Assembly (NCBI GenBank): GCA_017383485.1
Contig: JAFNXM010000002.1
Span: 1-32,241, forward strand
DNA: 32,241 nucleotides
DNA from: Bacteroidaceae bacterium
Lineage (GTDB): Bacteria > Bacteroidota > Bacteroidia > Bacteroidales > Bacteroidaceae
Direction: 5' to 3'
Shown: positions 3,734 through 30,649 of the stretch, in pieces
Numbering within the stretch: position 1 is the first letter of the stretch
How the letters are laid out: each line of letters opens with the position of its first letter
The notes under the pieces: generated by a model
What the model saw: only the letters and a program-made list of their open reading frames with translations
What the model was told of the DNA's origin: nothing
The model's database searches: none
Program-made: the position numbers and the translations under genes

Positions 3734-6700
3734 TTATTTCACGACCTTCTGGCCGTCCTTGATATAAACGCCTCGCTGAGTCTGTGTGACCCTGCGTCCG
3801 CTGATGTCATAGATATCTGCATCGCTATTGGTACCCAGATTTACGCCATCCACACTGACATCTTCGAACTGGATGAGGTAGTAGGACTGGATGCCCGATG
3901 TGCGAGAGATGGGCAGATATGCACGATGTGAAGCAAAGGATGAACCAGAGGGAACAAATGCGGGTTCGCCGAGCGATGTGGGGTCCAGTGAATAATAGAT
4001 ATTGGTGGACACAGGGTGACCCGATGTGTGTTCGCTGACCAGCAGGTTGTCGCCAGTGCTGGTCGGACATTGGTCGGCGGTCTTTTCAAAAGTATATTTA
4101 CCTGCTTCGCCACAGATGATGACTGGGCAGCGTGCTGGCAAGACATCAGAGAGCAATGCTGTAGCCACGGCTACGTTGTCGCGCACATCGGTGATCATGA
4201 TAGATAGGAGTCCCTCGGGGAGGCGTGCGTCGTAGGGCAGGCTGACTGTGGTATAACCTGCAGCAGGCACAGTCAGGACGTAGTCGTCTGTGGTATTGCC
4301 CTCGAGTACGGTGAAGTCGCTCTTGACCAAATCAAACTGTTGGATAGTGAAGCAGGACTTGCCCTTCATATTCACAACGAGACCGAGTGATACCTGCGAT
4401 TCGTGGCTGAGTATGAAGCTGACTTCGTTCTTGGTCGTAGTGCCAGACTTTTCGGCCATCTTGCTAAATGCAAGCGCTTTTTGTCCCAGCGCGCTGGTGC
4501 TGGGCAGTGTGCTGCCTTCGGCTACGACGAGATAGGAGTCCTCGCATTGACCTTCGTAGGTCTCGTCGTAGTGAGCGGTGAAGGTGTAGTAGCCTGCAGG
4601 CAGGGTGATGGTCTGATAAACCTTGTGGTCAGCGAGTGTAGAGAAACCGTCCCATGTGGTGGTGAATGTCATACACTGGCTCTTCTGCATATCGACGTGT
4701 GCACCTGTGGTGATGTTGCCACTCTTCACATTGCCCTCTTGCTTCCAACCCTTGAGTTCGTAGAAACGATTTGAGGGGCTTGGGTTGACCAAAGTATTGT
4801 TGTGCTCGAATGCCTTGCGATAGTTGGTCAGATAGGTAGAAGTGACCGTCTCGGGTGCAGCAGTTTCGCCAAAATTCAGGACGAATACACCGCGAGACAA
4901 TCCCCAAGCATCGCCATCGGGGCCGAATCCACTGCGTGTGGCATGATACCCCTTGGAAGTGCGGTCTTGTACCGAACCACCGCTTTGGTTGAAGTCGTAG
5001 TAGAGTACGAGTCCATCAGCCGATACGGCATTATTCACATTGGCGATAGGAGCATTGGCATAGGTGCGCAGTTTGGATACGGACAAGACTTTGTTCCACA
5101 CACGCAGTTCGTCGATAGAGCCATAGAAAGGTGTGTCGCTGCCACCGACCTGGAACTTGCCAGGCTTGTAGGTCAATGATGTGATGCCAGGGTTGCCCTT
5201 GGTGATGAGTTGGCCATCGCGATAGTATTGTACGACGCCGCTCTTGAAGGTAACGGCATAGTGGTGCCATTCGCCAGTGACGATGTAGCCCTCTTGGCTA
5301 TAGCACTTTTTGCCAGCAATGCTCAGTTGCAAGACACCCTTGTTGTTGGCCTTCAGCAACAGCGTGTTGTCGGTATCACCCATGCCGTGGGTGTAGGTGC
5401 CGAGCTGTGTAGGATTCATCCACCAATCGATGGTAAAGTCTGTCTGAGACACAGTGAATGGAGAGTTGGCAGAGATAGAAGCCGAACTACCGCCGAAGTT
5501 GAGTCCGTTCTTGCTGTCGGCATTGGCAACGTATAGCGCTTTGTTGAGTGTCTTGGAAGACATACCCGCATCGTTCTTGGCTGTGAGGGTGATGTTGTAG
5601 ACACCTGGTTGGTCGAGTGTGAGTGTAGGATTTTGTCCCATAGCTACGAATGAGTTGCCCGAGCTGACCAACTTCCATGTCCAGTCGGTAGGACCACCGG
5701 TAGACTTGTCAGTCAAAGTAAAACTTTCACCCTTCAGAATCAACGAAGGCGATACGGCAAAGTCCACCTTAGGCGCTGCAGCTTCGACGCGGATAGTCTG
5801 CGATGTGCTGCGGGTATTGCCCGAAGGTGTGCTGACGCTCAATGTGACGGTGTATGTGCCACCCTTGGCGTATGTAGTAGCGGCTTGAGTGGTCGATGCT
5901 TTCTCAACCTCTGCACCAGGCATGCTCCATTCGTAGGTATAGCCCAATTGGGGAGCATTAGGAATAAATGTGACACGTTCGCCACTCTTCACTGTAGATT
6001 GAGACATGGTGAAAGATGCATCTGCTGCAGGAGCTTCGGTGACGTAGATTGTACGTTCAGCAGTAGATGAAGCACCCGAACCCGTCTTGGCTGTCACCTT
6101 CACTGTCTTTGAACCTGTAGACTTGAATGTGACACTTGGGGCTGCTGACGAGAGGTTGTTGATGCCTGCATCACTGATGGTCCAAAGCAATTCTGACACA
6201 GACTCAGAGCAAGAAGCGGTAAGTTTCACAGGAATACCAGCATAGACATTGCCCGAAGGTGAGTTGATTGAAACCGAAGGCGAAGTGGTTGAAGGTTTCA
6301 CGCTGGGCTGTGTGGCATCATTCTTGGCAAAATTATTATTAAGCAATGTAGCATGATTGCCTCCGATATAGTCGCGTAGCATGTTCACCCCATTTTCGTC
6401 AGTGAAGGTGTCGCCACGATAGTAAGCTACAAGTCCGCTAGGCATCACGGTGCCTGTAAATTCGAGATTCTTAGCAGAAGAAATTTGAGAAGCAGAGCGT
6501 GCATAGTTCCATACACGAACTTCGTCAACCTTAGCATTCCAAGCATCACCACCAGTAGCACGGAAGTTCAAATTGCCAAAACCTCCCAAACCGCTATATG
6601 TGCTTGAAGTGATGCTACCCTTGTTCTGACCATTGATATAAGCCGTCATGACATTGCCATTGACAGTAAATGCAACGTGAGTCCAGGTGCCTGTACGCAA

Positions 6701-8686
6701 AGAATTTGCTGAAGTATTGATACGGTTGCTGGTGTCCCAACCTACTGTGAAGGTACCATTGGCATTGGCATGGAACATGAATGAGCCCCAACCTGGGCCT
6801 GCAGCTTGATTCCAGTCAGACAAAGAATTAGGACAAATCCAGAATTCTACAGTCGCTTGATTGTAGCTGCTGGTGAAGACATTAGGAATAGAGAAACCTG
6901 AGTTCTTCAGATTGACAGAAGTATTATATAAGCCATTTGGCTGGATAGGCGTACTGGTCTTCACCTGTGCAGATTCAACCTTATCATCGTCATAAAGTGC
7001 TGAAACAGCAAAGGTGGTTTGCTTAGCAGAACTATTGTATGAGGGTTGGTATGACAAGGTGTTGGCAGACACAGTGGTTTGCTTGACACCATCTACATAT
7101 ATATTATAACCTACGACATTGTGGCCAGACTTGACTGGAGCTTGCCAAGATAATGTGCTGCCAGTGAAGGTCGGATTCTGAGGAGCATAGTAAGACTCGC
7201 CATATACGACTACAGATATTATGGTCTTGTTGCCACGATTCTGGATTTGCACCTTACCACCTGGCAGATTAAATGGTGTTTCGATACCCTTTGTGTCATG
7301 TTCATAGTCCATGATACTAGCATTATGGATATATCCGCTACCTGCTGCCCAAGACTTGGTTTCAATGATAAAGAAATACTTCAAAGGCATATTTCTGTCG
7401 AACGATGCAGAAAGGTCTGTCAAGTCGTATCCGAATTCCATGGGTTCGTTGTGTACACCATCTGCCCACTTACCGAGCATTGGCACTTGGGGTGCAGGGT
7501 TAGTGTTACCATAGTTACCATCTCCGGCATACTTGAAGTGGTCGAACACTACGGTCTTTTCAGGCGAAGTAGCATTGAGGTCTGAAGAAACACCTGCGCT
7601 GAGGCAAATTTCACTACGGCGAGAATATTCCATCTTCAACTTAATGGTGCGAAGTGGGCGATAATCTTTTCTTACCTTATAGATTTCTGGATACCACCAG
7701 TCGCCTGAGAAAGAGTCGTCTTGTCTGAAGTACGAACCACCATAAGCATAGGGACAGTAAATAAAACCCTTTGATGCCCAGGTATTACCCCAAGAATTGA
7801 CAATAATCCATGCACCAACTTCGTCGGCACTCTTTTCACCATAAATACCATTGTCGTTGAGGTCGAACTCTACACGATCATCATAACCGACGATAGTCAA
7901 AGCGTGGTCTACCTGTGGACCCCAAGTATTGAGGTATTGCAGACCTACAACTCCAGCATTGCTATTTGCAGTCGTATTGGGAATAGGACGATAGGTCAGT
8001 CCGGCACTTGCTACACCGATACCGCAAATACCACCTCCGTGGAAAGAATTGTCACCACTGTGATTCCACAACCAATGTTTCACAGCTTCACGACCTTCCT
8101 CGGTACCGACGTGCATTGGGAAGTTGGCTGGGCGATACATTCTGTTGTGCATGGCTTCAAACCATTTGTCATAACCAGTCATCCAGCCGAAGTTGTTGTC
8201 ACGTTCTTCCTGATAACCAAAAAGCGAAGAATAAGTGCGACCACCATACGTTGCACTAGAAGGCACACCGACATTTTGCACAAATTCATCCTTACCCGAG
8301 TTACCATTAGTCAGCAACCACACAAAGTGTGAAGGGTAGTTGTTTTCATTCTTAGAACCATCAAGATTGCGGTACGCATTCAGCTCATGGGTGAACATGT
8401 AGCAGATACGAGATGCCGAACCACACGAACCTCCATCTTGATTGAAGACAGGAGGGAAGAACTTCAATTCAGCATTATTCACATGACTTGGACGACTTGT
8501 AGCCGCTCTCTTTTTACCATCCTCAGAGGGAAGGGATTTCTTGTAATTCATCAGACTTGGGTCGGGATTTAACGTCCCATTGTAGTCTGGATACATCTTA
8601 CGATTAACCTCCTGAGCCAATACTGTACTTGGTACGAGCAAGGCAATGAGCAAAAGGCTTGCAAGGTGTTTGCTAAATGATTTCAT
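3734..8686 (-). CDS. Secreted papain-fold (C1-like) multidomain protein with LamG, PKD and type IX secretion tail
   Basis: A 1650-residue surface or secreted protein. Domains in order: signal peptide 1-24 (cut after VLA); papain-like domain about 70-320; Fn3-like about 500-575; LamG/concanavalin-like about 590-740; three PKD-like repeats about 803-883, 888-967 and 972-1053; second LamG about 1060-1215; a galactose-binding-like region about 1290-1460; and a C-terminal segment ending in YDISGRRVTQ...GVYIKDGQKVVK, a type IX sorting signal of the Prevotella kind. The catalytic His261 (VDHALTIVGYDD) and Asn297 (WIIVNSWGNTW) of a C1 peptidase are clear. The nucleophile region, GGSCGSASR (85-93), lacks the usual Cys-Trp: Cys88 may serve, or the papain Cys25 position is Ala91. 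A DLNDNGIYGE loop (275-284) resembles a calcium site. Likely role: binding and cleaving host or dietary protein or glycoprotein. Activity is uncertain. Confidence 0.85.
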   Translation of the reverse strand: MKSFSKHLASLLLIALLVPSTVLAQEVNRKMYPDYNGTLNPDPSLMNYKKSLPSEDGKKRAATSRPSHVNNAELKFFPPVFNQDGGSCGSASRICYMFTHELNAYRNLDGSKNENNYPSHFVWLLTNGNSGKDEFVQNVGVPSSATYGGRTYSSLFGYQEERDNNFGWMTGYDKWFEAMHNRMYRPANFPMHVGTEEGREAVKHWLWNHSGDNSFHGGGICGIGVASAGLTYRPIPNTTANSNAGVVGLQYLNTWGPQVDHALTIVGYDDRVEFDLNDNGIYGEKSADEVGAWIIVNSWGNTWASKGFIYCPYAYGGSYFRQDDSFSGDWWYPEIYKVRKDYRPLRTIKLKMEYSRRSEICLSAGVSSDLNATSPEKTVVFDHFKYAGDGNYGNTNPAPQVPMLGKWADGVHNEPMEFGYDLTDLSASFDRNMPLKYFFIIETKSWAAGSGYIHNASIMDYEHDTKGIETPFNLPGGKVQIQNRGNKTIISVVVYGESYYAPQNPTFTGSTLSWQAPVKSGHNVVGYNIYVDGVKQTTVSANTLSYQPSYNSSAKQTTFAVSALYDDDKVESAQVKTSTPIQPNGLYNTSVNLKNSGFSIPNVFTSSYNQATVEFWICPNSLSDWNQAAGPGWGSFMFHANANGTFTVGWDTSNRINTSANSLRTGTWTHVAFTVNGNVMTAYINGQNKGSITSSTYSGLGGFGNLNFRATGGDAWNAKVDEVRVWNYARSASQISSAKNLEFTGTVMPSGLVAYYRGDTFTDENGVNMLRDYIGGNHATLLNNNFAKNDATQPSVKPSTTSPSVSINSPSGNVYAGIPVKLTASCSESVSELLWTISDAGINNLSSAAPSVTFKSTGSKTVKVTAKTGSGASSTAERTIYVTEAPAADASFTMSQSTVKSGERVTFIPNAPQLGYTYEWSMPGAEVEKASTTQAATTYAKGGTYTVTLSVSTPSGNTRSTSQTIRVEAAAPKVDFAVSPSLILKGESFTLTDKSTGGPTDWTWKLVSSGNSFVAMGQNPTLTLDQPGVYNITLTAKNDAGMSSKTLNKALYVANADSKNGLNFGGSSASISANSPFTVSQTDFTIDWWMNPTQLGTYTHGMGDTDNTLLLKANNKGVLQLSIAGKKCYSQEGYIVTGEWHHYAVTFKSGVVQYYRDGQLITKGNPGITSLTYKPGKFQVGGSDTPFYGSIDELRVWNKVLSVSKLRTYANAPIANVNNAVSADGLVLYYDFNQSGGSVQDRTSKGYHATRSGFGPDGDAWGLSRGVFVLNFGETAAPETVTSTYLTNYRKAFEHNNTLVNPSPSNRFYELKGWKQEGNVKSGNITTGAHVDMQKSQCMTFTTTWDGFSTLADHKVYQTITLPAGYYTFTAHYDETYEGQCEDSYLVVAEGSTLPSTSALGQKALAFSKMAEKSGTTTKNEVSFILSHESQVSLGLVVNMKGKSCFTIQQFDLVKSDFTVLEGNTTDDYVLTVPAAGYTTVSLPYDARLPEGLLSIMITDVRDNVAVATALLSDVLPARCPVIICGEAGKYTFEKTADQCPTSTGDNLLVSEHTSGHPVSTNIYYSLDPTSLGEPAFVPSGSSFASHRAYLPISRTSGIQSYYLIQFEDVSVDGVNLGTNSDADIYDISGRRVTQTQRGVYIKDGQKVVK

Positions 8687-28783: not shown

Positions 28784-28791
28784 TAACTTTG
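28784..28791 (+). promoter_or_regulatory. -7 promoter box for the NifU-like/GGGtGRT operon
   Basis: TAACTTTG fits TAnnTTTG and is followed by CCG. The start codon lies 46 bases downstream. A TTG at 28755-28757 is further away than the usual -33 spacing, so only the -7 box is well supported. Confidence 0.55.
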
Positions 28792-28836: not shown

Positions 28837-29538
28837 ATGGAATATTCTCACGAAGTACAAAACATGTGTTGCGTGGCTAAAGGCCCCAACCATGGTCCCG
28901 CTCCTATCCCCGAGGAAGGAAAGTGGGTGCAAGCTAAGGAAATCAAGGACATCTCTGGTCTGACTCACGGTGTGGGTTGGTGTGCACCACAACAAGGTGC
29001 ATGTAAGCTCACTTTGAATGTGAAGGAAGGTGTAATCGAAGAATGCTTGATTGAAACTATCGGTTGCTCTGGTATGACTCACTCTGCTGCTATGGCTAGT
29101 GAAATCCTTCCAGGTAAGACTATCCTCGAAGCATTGAACACTGACCTTGTATGTGATGCTATCAACACTGCTATGCGTGAACTCTTCTTGCAAATCGTGT
29201 ATGGACGTACACAATCTGCTTTCTCTGAAGGTGGTCTTGTAATCGGTGCTGGTCTTGAAGACTTGGGTAAGGGCTTGATTTCACAAACTGGTACTCTCTA
29301 TGGTACTAAGGTGAAGGGTTCTCGTTACTTGCAATTGACTGAAGGTTACATCACTAAGATGTTCCTTGACAAGGATGACCAAGTATGTGGTTACGAATTT
29401 GTACACATGGGCAAGTTTATGGACGCTATCAAGAAGGGTGTGCCTGCAGACGAAGCCTTGAAGAGTGTAACAGGTACCTACGGCCGTACTAAGGCTGAAG
29501 ATGGTGTTGTTAAATCAATTGACCCCCGTCACGAATAA
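28837..29538 (+). CDS. NifU-like iron-sulfur cluster scaffold-type protein
   Basis: A 233-residue cytoplasmic protein whose N-terminal half resembles the IscU/NifU scaffold fold. Cysteines at 49, 56, 70 and 77 are candidate ligands, and IETIGCSGMTHSAAMASEI parallels the FGC...A-SS segment of NifU. The cysteine spacing and flanks differ from classical IscU. The C-terminal half contains GTYGRTKAEDGVV and is not a known NifU domain. Codons are strongly biased (GGT, ACT, CGT, CAA, AAG), which implies very high expression. It is followed after 20 bases by the GGGtGRT gene; the two are usually found together. No ribosome-binding site is visible before the ATG. Confidence 0.8.
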   Translation: MEYSHEVQNMCCVAKGPNHGPAPIPEEGKWVQAKEIKDISGLTHGVGWCAPQQGACKLTLNVKEGVIEECLIETIGCSGMTHSAAMASEILPGKTILEALNTDLVCDAINTAMRELFLQIVYGRTQSAFSEGGLVIGAGLEDLGKGLISQTGTLYGTKVKGSRYLQLTEGYITKMFLDKDDQVCGYEFVHMGKFMDAIKKGVPADEALKSVTGTYGRTKAEDGVVKSIDPRHE

Positions 29539-29558
29539 AATAAGGAGGATTTGCAATT

Positions 29559-30578
29559 ATGATTAGAGAAGTAAAATTTGAAAGTCAAGACCGTCGTATC
29601 AAGCAAATTCTGGCTTGTTTGAACTCACACGGTATCTCATCTATCGAAGAAGCTAACCAAATCTGTGAAGCTGCAGGACTCGATCCCTATCAAACTTGCG
29701 AAGAAACACAGATGATTTGCTTCGAAAATGCTAAGTGGGCTTATGTAGTAGGTACTGCTATCGCATTGAAGGAAAAGGCTAAAAATGCTGTAGAAGCAGC
29801 TGAATATATCGGCGAAGGCTTGCAAGCATTCTGTGTACCAGGTTCAGTAGCTGACGACCGCAAGGTAGGTATTGGCCACGGACAATTGGCAGCTCGTTTG
29901 CTCTCAGAAGACACTAAGTGCTTTGCTTTCCTTGCTGGTCACGAATCATTTGCTGCTGCTGAAGGTGCTATCAAAATCGCACAAATGGCTAACAAGTCAA
30001 GACCCGCAGACAAACCATTGCGTTGCATCCTCTGTGGTCTTGGTAAGGATGCTGCTATGATCATCAGCCGTATCAATGGTTTTACTTACGTACAAACTAA
30101 GTTCGACTACTTCACAGGCGAACTTAATGAAGTACAACGCATTGCATATAGCAATGGTCCTCGTGCTGCAGTAAACTGCTATGGTGCTGACGACGTACGC
30201 GAAGGTGTATCTATCCTTTGGAAGGAAGATGTAGACGTATCTATCACAGGTAACTCTACTAACCCTACTCGTTTCCAACACCCAGTAGCTGGTACTTACA
30301 AGAAGGAACGTGTACTCGCTGGTAAGCCTTACTTCTCAGTAGCTTCTGGTGGTGGTACTGGTCGTACACTTCACCCAGATAATATGGCTGCTGGTCCTGC
30401 ATCTTATGGTATGACTGATACCCTCGGTCGTATGCACTCTGATGCTCAATTCGCTGGTTCTTCATCAGTTCCTGCACACGTTGAAATGATGGGTTTCCTC
30501 GGTATTGGTAACAACCCAATGGTAGGATGTACAGTAGCTTGCGCTGTTCAAGCTGACCTCTTCCTCAACAAGAAGTAA
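29559..30578 (+). CDS. GGGtGRT protein (function unknown)
   Basis: A 339-residue protein of the family named after its motif, seen here as GGGTGRT at 264-270. Other conserved-looking stretches are GHGQLAARL, LAGHESFAAAEGAIKIA, CILCGLGKDAAMII and the Cys-containing NPMVGCTVACAVQ near the end. There are no membrane segments or signal peptide. A strong Shine-Dalgarno sequence, AAGGAGG (29542-29548), stands 10 bases before the ATG, unusual in this window. Codon bias indicates very high expression. Its constant partner is the NifU-like protein, so it may receive or use an iron-sulfur cluster. No reaction is established to my knowledge. Confidence 0.85.
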   Translation: MIREVKFESQDRRIKQILACLNSHGISSIEEANQICEAAGLDPYQTCEETQMICFENAKWAYVVGTAIALKEKAKNAVEAAEYIGEGLQAFCVPGSVADDRKVGIGHGQLAARLLSEDTKCFAFLAGHESFAAAEGAIKIAQMANKSRPADKPLRCILCGLGKDAAMIISRINGFTYVQTKFDYFTGELNEVQRIAYSNGPRAAVNCYGADDVREGVSILWKEDVDVSITGNSTNPTRFQHPVAGTYKKERVLAGKPYFSVASGGGTGRTLHPDNMAAGPASYGMTDTLGRMHSDAQFAGSSSVPAHVEMMGFLGIGNNPMVGCTVACAVQADLFLNKK

Positions 30579-30604: not shown

Positions 30605-30649
30605 AGAGGGTGCGTCTTGATCAACAAGATGCACCCTCTTATTTTATTG
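30605..30649 (+). terminator. Terminator of the NifU-like/GGGtGRT operon
   Basis: AGAGGGTGCGTCTTG (30605-30619) and CAAGATGCACCCTCT (30625-30639) form a 15-bp stem with one G-T pair and a 5-base loop, followed by TATTTTATTG. Confidence 0.85.

Follow-up and report, generated by a model that had tools for sequence, protein, structure and literature searches.

A NifU-like and GGGtGRT gene pair, tightly linked across bacterial phyla, probably encodes an uncharacterised iron-sulphur enzyme

The analysed stretch of Bacteroidaceae DNA (32,241 nucleotides; the window) carries a gene for a NifU-like protein followed by a gene for a GGGtGRT protein. Across phyla the two genes remain tightly linked as one cassette, which distantly related bacteria, gut dwellers in many cases, inherit as a whole; according to the literature, its expression follows iron in two organisms. 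Since the pair is co-inherited and falls silent when iron is short, it probably forms an as yet uncharacterised iron-sulphur enzyme. More specifically, and tentatively, we favour an abundant two-protein iron-sulphur system working as one enzyme. The sequence evidence makes it possible to replace the label of two hypothetical proteins by a testable claim with named candidate ligand cysteines and iron-dependent expression.

The preliminary description, made from the letters of the window, had suggested an undescribed iron-sulphur or sulphur-handling enzyme system. The term undescribed holds for function, none being given in the published passages available, and fails for expression and iron response, which others have already tabulated without assigning a function. 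The enzyme-system reading itself gains from the linkage, the kinship with scaffolds, the reported iron-dependent expression and the lack of a sequence match to a characterised enzyme; from these we infer cluster binding, complex formation and an enzymatic role. The features of the locus are:

28784..28791, + strand: possible promoter of the pair, a Bacteroidales-type -7 element TAACTTTG (TAnnTTTG pattern)
28837..29538, + strand: NifU-like gene, an ORF of 233 amino acids
29541..29548, + strand: Shine-Dalgarno sequence TAAGGAGG of the GGGtGRT gene, an 8-nt match of -12.2 kcal/mol
29559..30578, + strand: GGGtGRT gene (PF14057), 339 amino acids, Pfam E 6.6e-181
30605..30639, + strand: intrinsic terminator of the operon, with a 15-pair stem, a 5-base loop and a T-rich tail

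Analysis of 196 Clostridia genomes showed the GGGtGRT gene in 91, the NifU-like gene in 91 and both in 90. Among 149 Bacteroidales the numbers were 26 and 24, all 24 shared; the two genomes with the GGGtGRT gene only are a contig-end locus (L012) and a locus with half a gene (L026). The co-occurrence that the preliminary description had proposed to score is thus found in both groups. The NifU-like gene precedes the GGGtGRT gene on the same strand in all 121 loci where both ORFs are clean (some genomes are represented twice), with a median gap of 18 bases; ten gaps exceed 150 bases and the largest is 518. Only one clean ORF of the pair was obtained at 11 loci, which include loci cut at contig ends as well as L083 and L100, where the NifU-like ORF is divided over two frames. 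The ORF sets, restricted to sequences within 25 amino acids of the expected length, held 128 GGGtGRT and 125 NifU-like proteins, the duplicates L113-L118 and L001 being left out.

The pair also occurs in Spirochaetota, Bacilli, Collinsella, Persicobacter and Vibrio. Its presence in Vibrio and Persicobacter means that it extends beyond strict anaerobes, and the GGGtGRT gene is absent from 123 of the 149 Bacteroidales (106 of 130 when only genomes at least 90% complete are considered). On both grounds the pair was rejected as a strict-anaerobe marker, at which the preliminary description had hinted. That the pair is conserved was confirmed: mean column identity is 86% and 88% for its two proteins, over 25 and 24 Bacteroidales sequences. 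The distance correlation between the two proteins was 0.776 (r), the best of 500 label permutations reaching 0.179, although kinship of the species would by itself raise this value too.

The genomic surroundings are not shared. With the pair and antisense frames set aside, no neighbouring ORF family common to different phyla occurs in more than 4 of 113 loci, and the larger families (5 to 10 loci) stay within Bacteroidales; a role read from the neighbours was therefore rejected. In Collinsella, sufC-sufB-SufD-SufS-SufU, with SufU annotated as such, lie upstream of the pair, separated from it by a transposase.

Profile comparison places the NifU-like protein as a divergent relative of the U-type scaffolds, in agreement with its first description as scaffold-like. 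The window protein scores 20.4 bits against PF01592 (NifU_N), below the cut-off of 22, and aligns over residues 55-113 alone, the region around the second cysteine of IscU; several relatives score 22-24 bits, over the cut-off. The NCBIfam equivalog cut-offs were missed for NifU (25.5 of 187.9 bits), IscU (19.7 of 192.4) and SufU (17.1 of 92.5). Alignment to a U-type scaffold with hhalign gave a probability of 91.8% and 32% identity over 47 columns. The top phmmer match in the PDB, ahead of the scaffolds, was an Arp2/3 subunit (E 0.00013), which was discarded as two weak pieces. Unlike IscU and the N-terminal domain of NifU, the protein has 49 unrelated residues at its start, a CAPQQGAC loop in place of ACGD, about 95 additional residues at the C-terminus and an obligate partner gene.

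The first cysteine/aspartate loop of IscU appears to have been lost from the NifU-like protein, which has invariant cysteines of its own. When the protein is aligned to human ISCU with HMMER, its Q53 lies opposite the first ligand cysteine and the aspartate that follows in ISCU is unmatched, the alignment being gapped there. Asp mutants of IscU retain the cluster. C77, kept in all 69 pairs compared, is opposite the second cysteine (GC motif), and the region of the third cysteine does not align. No HCS motif was found in the NifU-like protein; the invariant C106 is located 29 positions past C77. The spacing of C49, C77 and C106 (28 and 29 positions) is unlike that of IscU, as had been noted: the four ordinary scaffolds with an HCS motif, among five used of six strong scaffold loci, show 25 and 44.

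Invariance was assessed over a set of 69 pairs, consisting of 31 from Bacteroidales (30 chosen at random and the window) and all non-Bacteroidales pairs, with L135/L105 and L142/L082 representing the same genomes twice. C49, C77, C106, H44 and H82 of the NifU-like protein are invariant in this set, a cysteine is present at position 11 or 12, and C56 is found in 68 pairs, being absent from Vibrio. Because the alignment is gapped at the first-cysteine loop and does not cover the third region, the ligands proposed below are candidates chosen by invariance alone.

Zinc-dependent or cluster-free sulphur transfer in the manner of SufU, with the GGGtGRT protein as sulphur acceptor or thiol enzyme, is a rather improbable explanation. 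Both proteins have conserved cysteines, and SufU, a zinc-dependent sulphurtransferase, is among the weak relatives of the NifU-like protein, in the same superfamily by a weak profile match. However, its score is below those of NifU and IscU, and the reported iron response indicates iron over zinc. In addition, the SufU zinc site consists of three Cys and one Asp, and this aspartate falls in an unmatched position of the gapped alignment.

The GGGtGRT protein of the window is a plain full-length member of PF14057 (600.9 bits, cut-off 27, profile positions 1-323 of 327), a family for which Pfam gives a name without a function and to which the NifU-like partner does not belong. The earlier statement that it has no known reaction was upheld. 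No NCBIfam family exceeded its cut-off, and the PDB yielded eight weak phmmer matches (best E 0.39), and none for a 39-row profile. A Pfam scan of 39 members gave six families besides PF14057, all at E 0.015 or worse, which were dismissed as noise (the commonest, NeqB_N, in 14 of the 39). No sequence match to a characterised enzyme was obtained for this protein. The passages of the available literature that name GGGtGRT do not give a reaction; in one of them (PMC9942572) it is among putative virulence factors called by software. The alignment used here comprised the window protein and 38 sequences of 45 thinned, and the companion alignment the window protein and 38 sequences, nearly all from 56 thinned.

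The signature GGGTGRT corresponds to residues 264-270. C36 and C121 are present in 69 of 69 pairs, C92 in 68 and C207, which varies in Persicobacter, in 67; six histidines (107, 128, 241, 272, 293 and 307) are invariant. The AlphaFold2 model showed a mean pLDDT of 79.4 and a pTM of 0.80. The loop of residues 264-304, which contains the signature, is nearly invariant, yet has a pLDDT below 50 when the protein is modelled alone, as expected if the loop becomes ordered on a partner or cofactor.

These observations are consistent with a remodelled U-type scaffold fold that would hold its cluster instead of passing it on, with C49, C77, C106 and the N-terminal cysteine as candidate ligands. The NifU-like chain would be the cluster-carrying subunit or, less likely, a private cluster donor, and the GGGtGRT protein its sole partner. 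The latter may be an alpha/beta (Rossmann-like) protein, a fold suggested by predicted secondary structure alone, whose invariant cysteines and histidines and glycine-rich GGGTGRT loop could provide an active site or docking face. The reaction might be a redox reaction or a sulphur transfer. Being costly in iron, the pair would be switched off when the metal is scarce. A further-reaching version is doubtful but conceivable: a scaffold would have been converted for good into the cluster-carrying chain of an abundant enzyme that has spread horizontally among anaerobic and facultative bacteria, in which GGGtGRT is a new catalytic fold or a new use of one, and which is a major gut and rumen protein with an unnamed iron-dependent reaction. 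If the favoured reading is true, gut anaerobes spend a notable share of their iron on one uncharacterised enzyme, and the scaffold fold has gained a structural or catalytic role.

The published iron responses are as follows. In the Bacteroides thetaiotaomicron section of PMC10434189, BT0173-74 are 11 to 12.8-fold lower on iron depletion (Table 6), a repression exceeding that of the ferritin or hydGEF genes; ferritin also falls. In the available portions of that article, mentions of NifU/GGGtGRT were found in this section and none under P. gingivalis or P. intermedia. For Clostridium pasteurianum, Table 2 of PMC5395762 lists a GGGtGRT spot that is 7.1-fold (early) and 2.2-fold (late) higher with iron, and the same paper reports a NifU-related protein, encoded by the next locus tag, as 2.4 and 3.7-fold higher early and 1.6 and 2.9-fold higher late. 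The excerpt of PMC7671984 holds a single NifU mention, without bearing on the pair.

Regarding abundance, a "nitrogen-fixing protein NifU" belongs to the top 25 protein families of the rumen in three of three cows (0.28, 1.72 and 1.47%; PMC6043501) and is probably the present NifU-like family. The metaproteome lists seen, including that one, place the pair proteins beside glycolytic enzymes, and gut and rumen tables of changing proteins include both members. Such company would suit an ordinary, metal-free enzyme of central metabolism whose NifU-like chain is just structural and whose iron control is indirect, and some conserved cysteines do vary (C56 in Vibrio, C207 in Persicobacter). We consider this explanation unlikely, given that C49, C77 and C106 of one protein and C36 and C121 of the other are kept in all 69 pairs and that the B. 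thetaiotaomicron repression surpasses that of ferritin or hydGEF (PMC10434189).

A third explanation, that the abundant pair soaks up plentiful iron as an iron or iron-sulphur store standing in for ferritin, was examined through ferritin itself. Ferritin (PF00210, E<=1e-8) was detected in 35 of 92 Clostridia with the pair and 73 of 104 without it (odds ratio 0.26, p 7.5e-6); when 20 genomes with weak matches only were not counted as having ferritin, the figures were 32 of 92 and 56 of 104 (odds ratio 0.46, p 0.0095), both comparisons being without phylogenetic correction. The partly complementary occurrence resembles what such a store would show, as does iron-replete expression that drops together with ferritin in the B. 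thetaiotaomicron data reported. However, B. thetaiotaomicron has both the pair and ferritin, the statistics lack phylogenetic correction, and the Pfam scan of the pair gave no ferritin match. Each chain has just four or five conserved cysteines, and strong conservation of the whole protein together with an enzyme-like glycine-rich loop is unexpected in a store. We regard this explanation as quite improbable.

The pair could also serve accessory iron-sulphur assembly, with the NifU-like protein as a transient scaffold and the GGGtGRT protein as a carrier or chaperone supplying clusters to other enzymes. The relationship to U-type scaffolds, the SUF genes beside the pair in Collinsella and expression when iron is plentiful agree with this proposal, which we nevertheless consider unlikely, if less so than the other alternatives. 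The first cysteine and the aspartate of IscU, the latter linked to cluster transfer, seem to be missing, and the published abundance is unusual for an assembly factor. Such factors are usually in greater, not smaller, demand during iron shortage.

Moreover, a strong PF01592 protein was already present in 78 of 92 pair-bearing Clostridia, compared with 95 of 104 without the pair (p 0.18). An ordinary scaffold thus occurs at about the same frequency whether or not the pair is there, so that the NifU-like gene is additional, and its role as a replacement was rejected. The genome of the window (63.55% complete), three named Bacteroidales and one of seven further genomes tested have the NifU-like protein as their sole PF01592 relative (E<=0.1). 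HydG, counted at E<=1e-60 (131 genomes, 129 of them over the curated cut-off), occurs in 72 of 92 Clostridia with the pair and 59 of 104 without (p 0.0015, uncorrected for phylogeny). This weak association does not single out a client pathway, and [FeFe]-hydrogenase maturation was rejected as client.

The expression signals attributed to the locus by the preliminary description, namely extreme codon bias in both genes, the best ribosome-binding site at the second gene and a strong terminator, were all recovered. The effective number of codons (ENC) is 32.8 and 34.7 for the two genes, 33.1 for the adjoining trigger factor and 45.6-58.8 for the other 18 window ORFs of at least 150 amino acids; in view of the trigger factor, the bias is real but not peculiar to the pair. 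Ranked within its locus, ENC is lowest for the GGGtGRT gene in 61 of 86 cases and for the NifU-like gene in 41 of 84. A locus needed four or more other ORFs to enter this ranking, and some loci, such as L170 and L082, dropped out since a longer antisense frame had taken the place of a pair gene. The Vibrio pair lacks codon bias (ENC 55.1), indicating that high expression is not universal.

The Shine-Dalgarno sequence of the GGGtGRT gene is the strongest of 21 window ORFs (runner-up -9.3 kcal/mol), whereas the NifU-like gene of the window has no match longer than 3 nt. Among loci labelled Bacteroidales, 67 of 92 GGGtGRT genes and 2 of 85 NifU-like genes are preceded by a similar motif; in the remaining loci, among which one Bacteroides locus (L099) was counted, the NifU-like gene also has it (28 of 38). 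TAnnTTTG is the Bacteroidales -7 consensus. Of 122 loci from all phyla, 74 carry it within 160 bases 5' of the NifU-like gene (raw count); no well-placed -33 part accompanying the -7 element was seen 5' of the NifU-like gene. Rfam gave no match anywhere in the window at gathering scores, and an RNA switch was rejected. Eight of the 15 pairs of the terminator stem are G-C, followed by TATTTTATTG, and the RNA fold of this stretch is -26.7 kcal/mol. Tyrosine-recombinase elements seem to integrate repeatedly at the 3' end of the GGGtGRT gene.

Sequence analysis of the window recovered the features of the pair named in the preliminary description, namely both ORFs, their codon bias, a ribosome-binding site and a terminator:

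28837-29538, + strand, NifU-like ORF, 233 aa
29559-30578, + strand, GGGtGRT ORF, 339 aa, full-length PF14057 match (E 6.6e-181)
30605-30639, terminator, 15-pair stem

The two ORFs lie on the same strand and are separated by 20 bases only. The codon bias, described as extreme, was found for both genes (effective number of codons 32.8 and 34.7) but is not special to them: trigger factor, upstream of the pair, is equally biased (33.1). Values for the remaining 18 long ORFs of the window ranged from 45.6 to 58.8. The strongest Shine-Dalgarno sequence among the 21 ORFs scored belongs to the GGGtGRT gene, and none worth mention was found for the NifU-like gene. The same asymmetry was seen in Bacteroidales-labelled relatives (67/92 GGGtGRT genes, 2/85 NifU-like genes) and is absent from other phyla, where 28 of 38 loci have a Shine-Dalgarno sequence before the NifU-like gene.

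The NifU-like and GGGtGRT genes are one unit. Of 149 Bacteroidales genomes drawn evenly, 26 matched PF14057; the NifU-like profile matched 24, none of them outside those 26. The two exceptions are a locus at a contig end (L012) and a half gene (L026). Among 196 Clostridia genomes each gene was found in 91, with 90 genomes having the two together: the sole GGGtGRT-only genome (G458) holds a fragment beginning at contig base 1, and the sole NifU-only genome (G312) a partial match. For the named-genome collection, the best 80 of at least 589 matching stretches were examined, and the NifU-like gene lay upstream of GGGtGRT in 79 of these, cut by the contig edge in a few and split over two frames in two (L083, L100); the remaining locus (L081) starts inside the GGGtGRT gene. 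All 121 loci in which both ORFs are clean have them on the same strand with the NifU-like gene first, and the gap has a median of 18 bases, exceeding 150 in ten loci, with a maximum of 518. These co-occurrence and collinearity data bear out the earlier claim of a conserved pair. Within-family distances correlate between the two families (0.776 over 69 pairs; maximum of 500 label permutations, 0.179), which could stem from shared species history too. Apart from the pair and its antisense frames, no ORF family shared between phyla was present in more than four of 113 loci. In a Parabacteroides locus (L171) the pair is interrupted by a 63-aa hypothetical ORF (5791-5982) and flanked by TlpA, OsmC and nitroreductase genes; in locus L103 the gap within the pair is 192 bases.

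PF14057 was found in 1 of 148 genomes of a Bacteroidota phylum draw (the window's own), in 9 of 120 Spirochaetota, where the NifU-like gene adjoins in eight and the ninth is split across two contigs, and in 1 of 14 control genomes (Bacteroides ihuae). The class Bacilli, drawn around an uncultured member and searched for GGGtGRT alone, gave 25 of 247, with the NifU-like gene present beside GGGtGRT in one locus (L106). A tblastn search of the plasmid collection returned 10 records, including Collinsella, Subdoligranulum, Persicobacter and Vibrio; several are 0.8 to 1.8 Mb long and might be chromosomes or bins deposited as plasmids. Since neither Vibrio nor Persicobacter is a strict anaerobe, the pair is no strict-anaerobe trait.

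A tree was built from 69 concatenated pairs; its details are rough, because the bootstrap had not quite settled. Three label changes each were needed for the Bacteroidota (without Persicobacter), Bacillota and Spirochaetota rows, of which the starred branches force at least two, two and three, respectively. One clade of 12 rows joins Persicobacter with four Bacteroidales, four spirochaetal and three clostridial rows. We read this tree as joint transfer of both genes from phylum to phylum.

Published data, in the portions available, link the pair to iron. In B. thetaiotaomicron, the counterparts BT0173-74, listed as 'GGGtGRT protein, nitrogen-fixing protein NifU', fell 11 to 12.8-fold under iron depletion (P printed as 0); the drop was smaller for ferritin (2.7-fold) and for hydGEF (2.9 to 3.6-fold) (PMC10434189). 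In C. pasteurianum grown with iron, the GGGtGRT spot rose 7.1-fold early and 2.2-fold late, and two spots of a NifU-related protein with a neighbouring locus tag rose 2.4 and 3.7-fold early and 1.6 and 2.9-fold late (PMC5395762). A 'nitrogen-fixing protein NifU' was among the top 25 protein families in three of three cows (0.28, 1.72 and 1.47%; PMC6043501); we infer that this is the pair's family, since two records give its NifU-like member that name. Both proteins were expressed in several taxa of the chicken caecum, where GGGtGRT was called poorly characterised (PMC11204068). Five further papers name one or both when tabulating or listing proteins that change (PMC7035244, PMC12014591, PMC13041051, PMC12643325, PMC12101220), and another gives GGGtGRT as a putative virulence factor of C. 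innocuum, called by software (PMC9942572). The system is thus not undescribed, as had been suggested, with regard to expression and iron response; the term holds for its chemistry, no reaction for either protein having been found in the portions of the literature covered (few subscription papers, no preprints). We know of no sequence support for the virulence-factor label. The reported expression is partly matched by codon bias in the relatives. Within its locus, GGGtGRT ranks lowest for effective codon number in 61 of 86 cases and the NifU-like gene in 41 of 84; the bias is absent from the Vibrio pair.

The pair joins a relative of U-type scaffolds to the orphan family GGGtGRT. The NifU-like protein matched NifU_N (PF01592) over residues 55-113 only, at 20.4 bits, under the cut-off of 22; its profile matched five ordinary U-type scaffolds of pair-bearing genomes with 91.8% probability over 47 columns only. 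Aligned with human ISCU, C77 falls at the second ligand cysteine; the place of the first is taken by Q53, and the aspartate two residues further along has no match. Four of the five ordinary scaffolds have their third cysteine in an HCS motif, 44 positions past the second, whereas the NifU-like protein lacks HCS and has the invariant C106 29 positions past C77, in agreement with the cysteine spacing unlike IscU noted earlier. Across 69 diverse pairs C49, C77, C106, H44 and H82 are invariant, position 11 or 12 always holds a cysteine, and C56 is missing in one (Vibrio). On these alignments the protein is a putative remodelled scaffold. The IscU aspartate favours cluster release; a protein that has lost it would be expected to retain its cluster.

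In GGGtGRT, all 69 pairs keep C36, C121 and six histidines; C92 is present in 68 and C207 in 67. An AlphaFold2 model (mean pLDDT 79.4, pTM 0.80) shows a helical N-terminal part (10-115); at 121-262 strands alternate with helices, which suggests a Rossmann-like domain. The GGGTGRT signature lies in segment 264-304, which has pLDDT under 50 and is followed by two helices. Nearly invariant yet undefined in the monomer model, this segment is what one expects of a candidate partner or cofactor site; poor modelling from so shallow an alignment (39 close sequences) would give the same picture.

These findings identify the pair as an iron-linked, strongly conserved two-gene unit without known function. 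A tentative reading, given slightly less than an even chance, is an iron-sulphur enzyme complex in which the NifU-like subunit carries the cluster; accessory assembly, storage, sulphur transfer and a metal-free role jointly share the remainder. The 196 Clostridia genomes were divided into 92 with at least one pair gene and 104 without. Replacement of the ordinary scaffold was rejected, because a PF01592 protein (E<=1e-8) is similarly frequent with and without the pair (78/92 vs 95/104, p 0.18, kinship ignored). In favour of storage, ferritin (E<=1e-8) is rarer with the pair (35/92 vs 73/104, p 7.5e-6), also when 20 genomes with weak matches only, suspected to be rubrerythrins, are scored as lacking ferritin (32/92 vs 56/104, p 0.0095), both tests ignoring kinship. 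HydG is more frequent with the pair (72/92 vs 59/104, p 0.0015, kinship again ignored). In Collinsella the SUF genes lie upstream of the pair, separated from it by a transposase.

The 3' end of the GGGtGRT gene (about 30396-30578 in the window) looks like a recurrent integration site, apparently used in Bacteroidales and Clostridia by mobile elements whose tyrosine recombinases fall into three groups. No relevant report was found in the literature searched. Short 3' copies lie near an intact gene in six loci (L064, L065, L045, L191, L198, L200), with exact matches of 26 to 96 bases to it; similar signs were seen in L179 and in viral loci L149-L167. All 19 loci of the viral collection that encode a GGGtGRT relative contain the 3' part, and 13 nothing before residue 272; 5' pieces are undetectable there because both search patterns lie in the 3' part. 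Eleven of the 19 carry a related integrase (five of these eleven were the source of the queries), and none was found within the examined stretch of the other eight. Ten ORFs near such 3' ends were tested: nine are Pfam phage integrases, which BLAST sorts into three groups, and the remaining one, from L045, is an AAA/DUF4143 protein. L064, L065, L045 and L199 yielded no integrase. No second copy was seen among the ORFs of the window. On one viral contig (L153, L160) there are two copies of the 3' part at a distance of about 14 kb, and a separate integrase gene follows each of them, an apparent tandem insertion at one site. In genome G842 the GGGtGRT match (C78:11187-12095) ends at profile position 303 and 3' pieces lie on other contigs (C50:18696-18839, C46:17288-17356), possibly another insertion case. 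In L052 an inverted 20-residue GGGtGRT piece (7111-7236, - strand) lies just downstream of the intact gene, with 45 exact bases in common.
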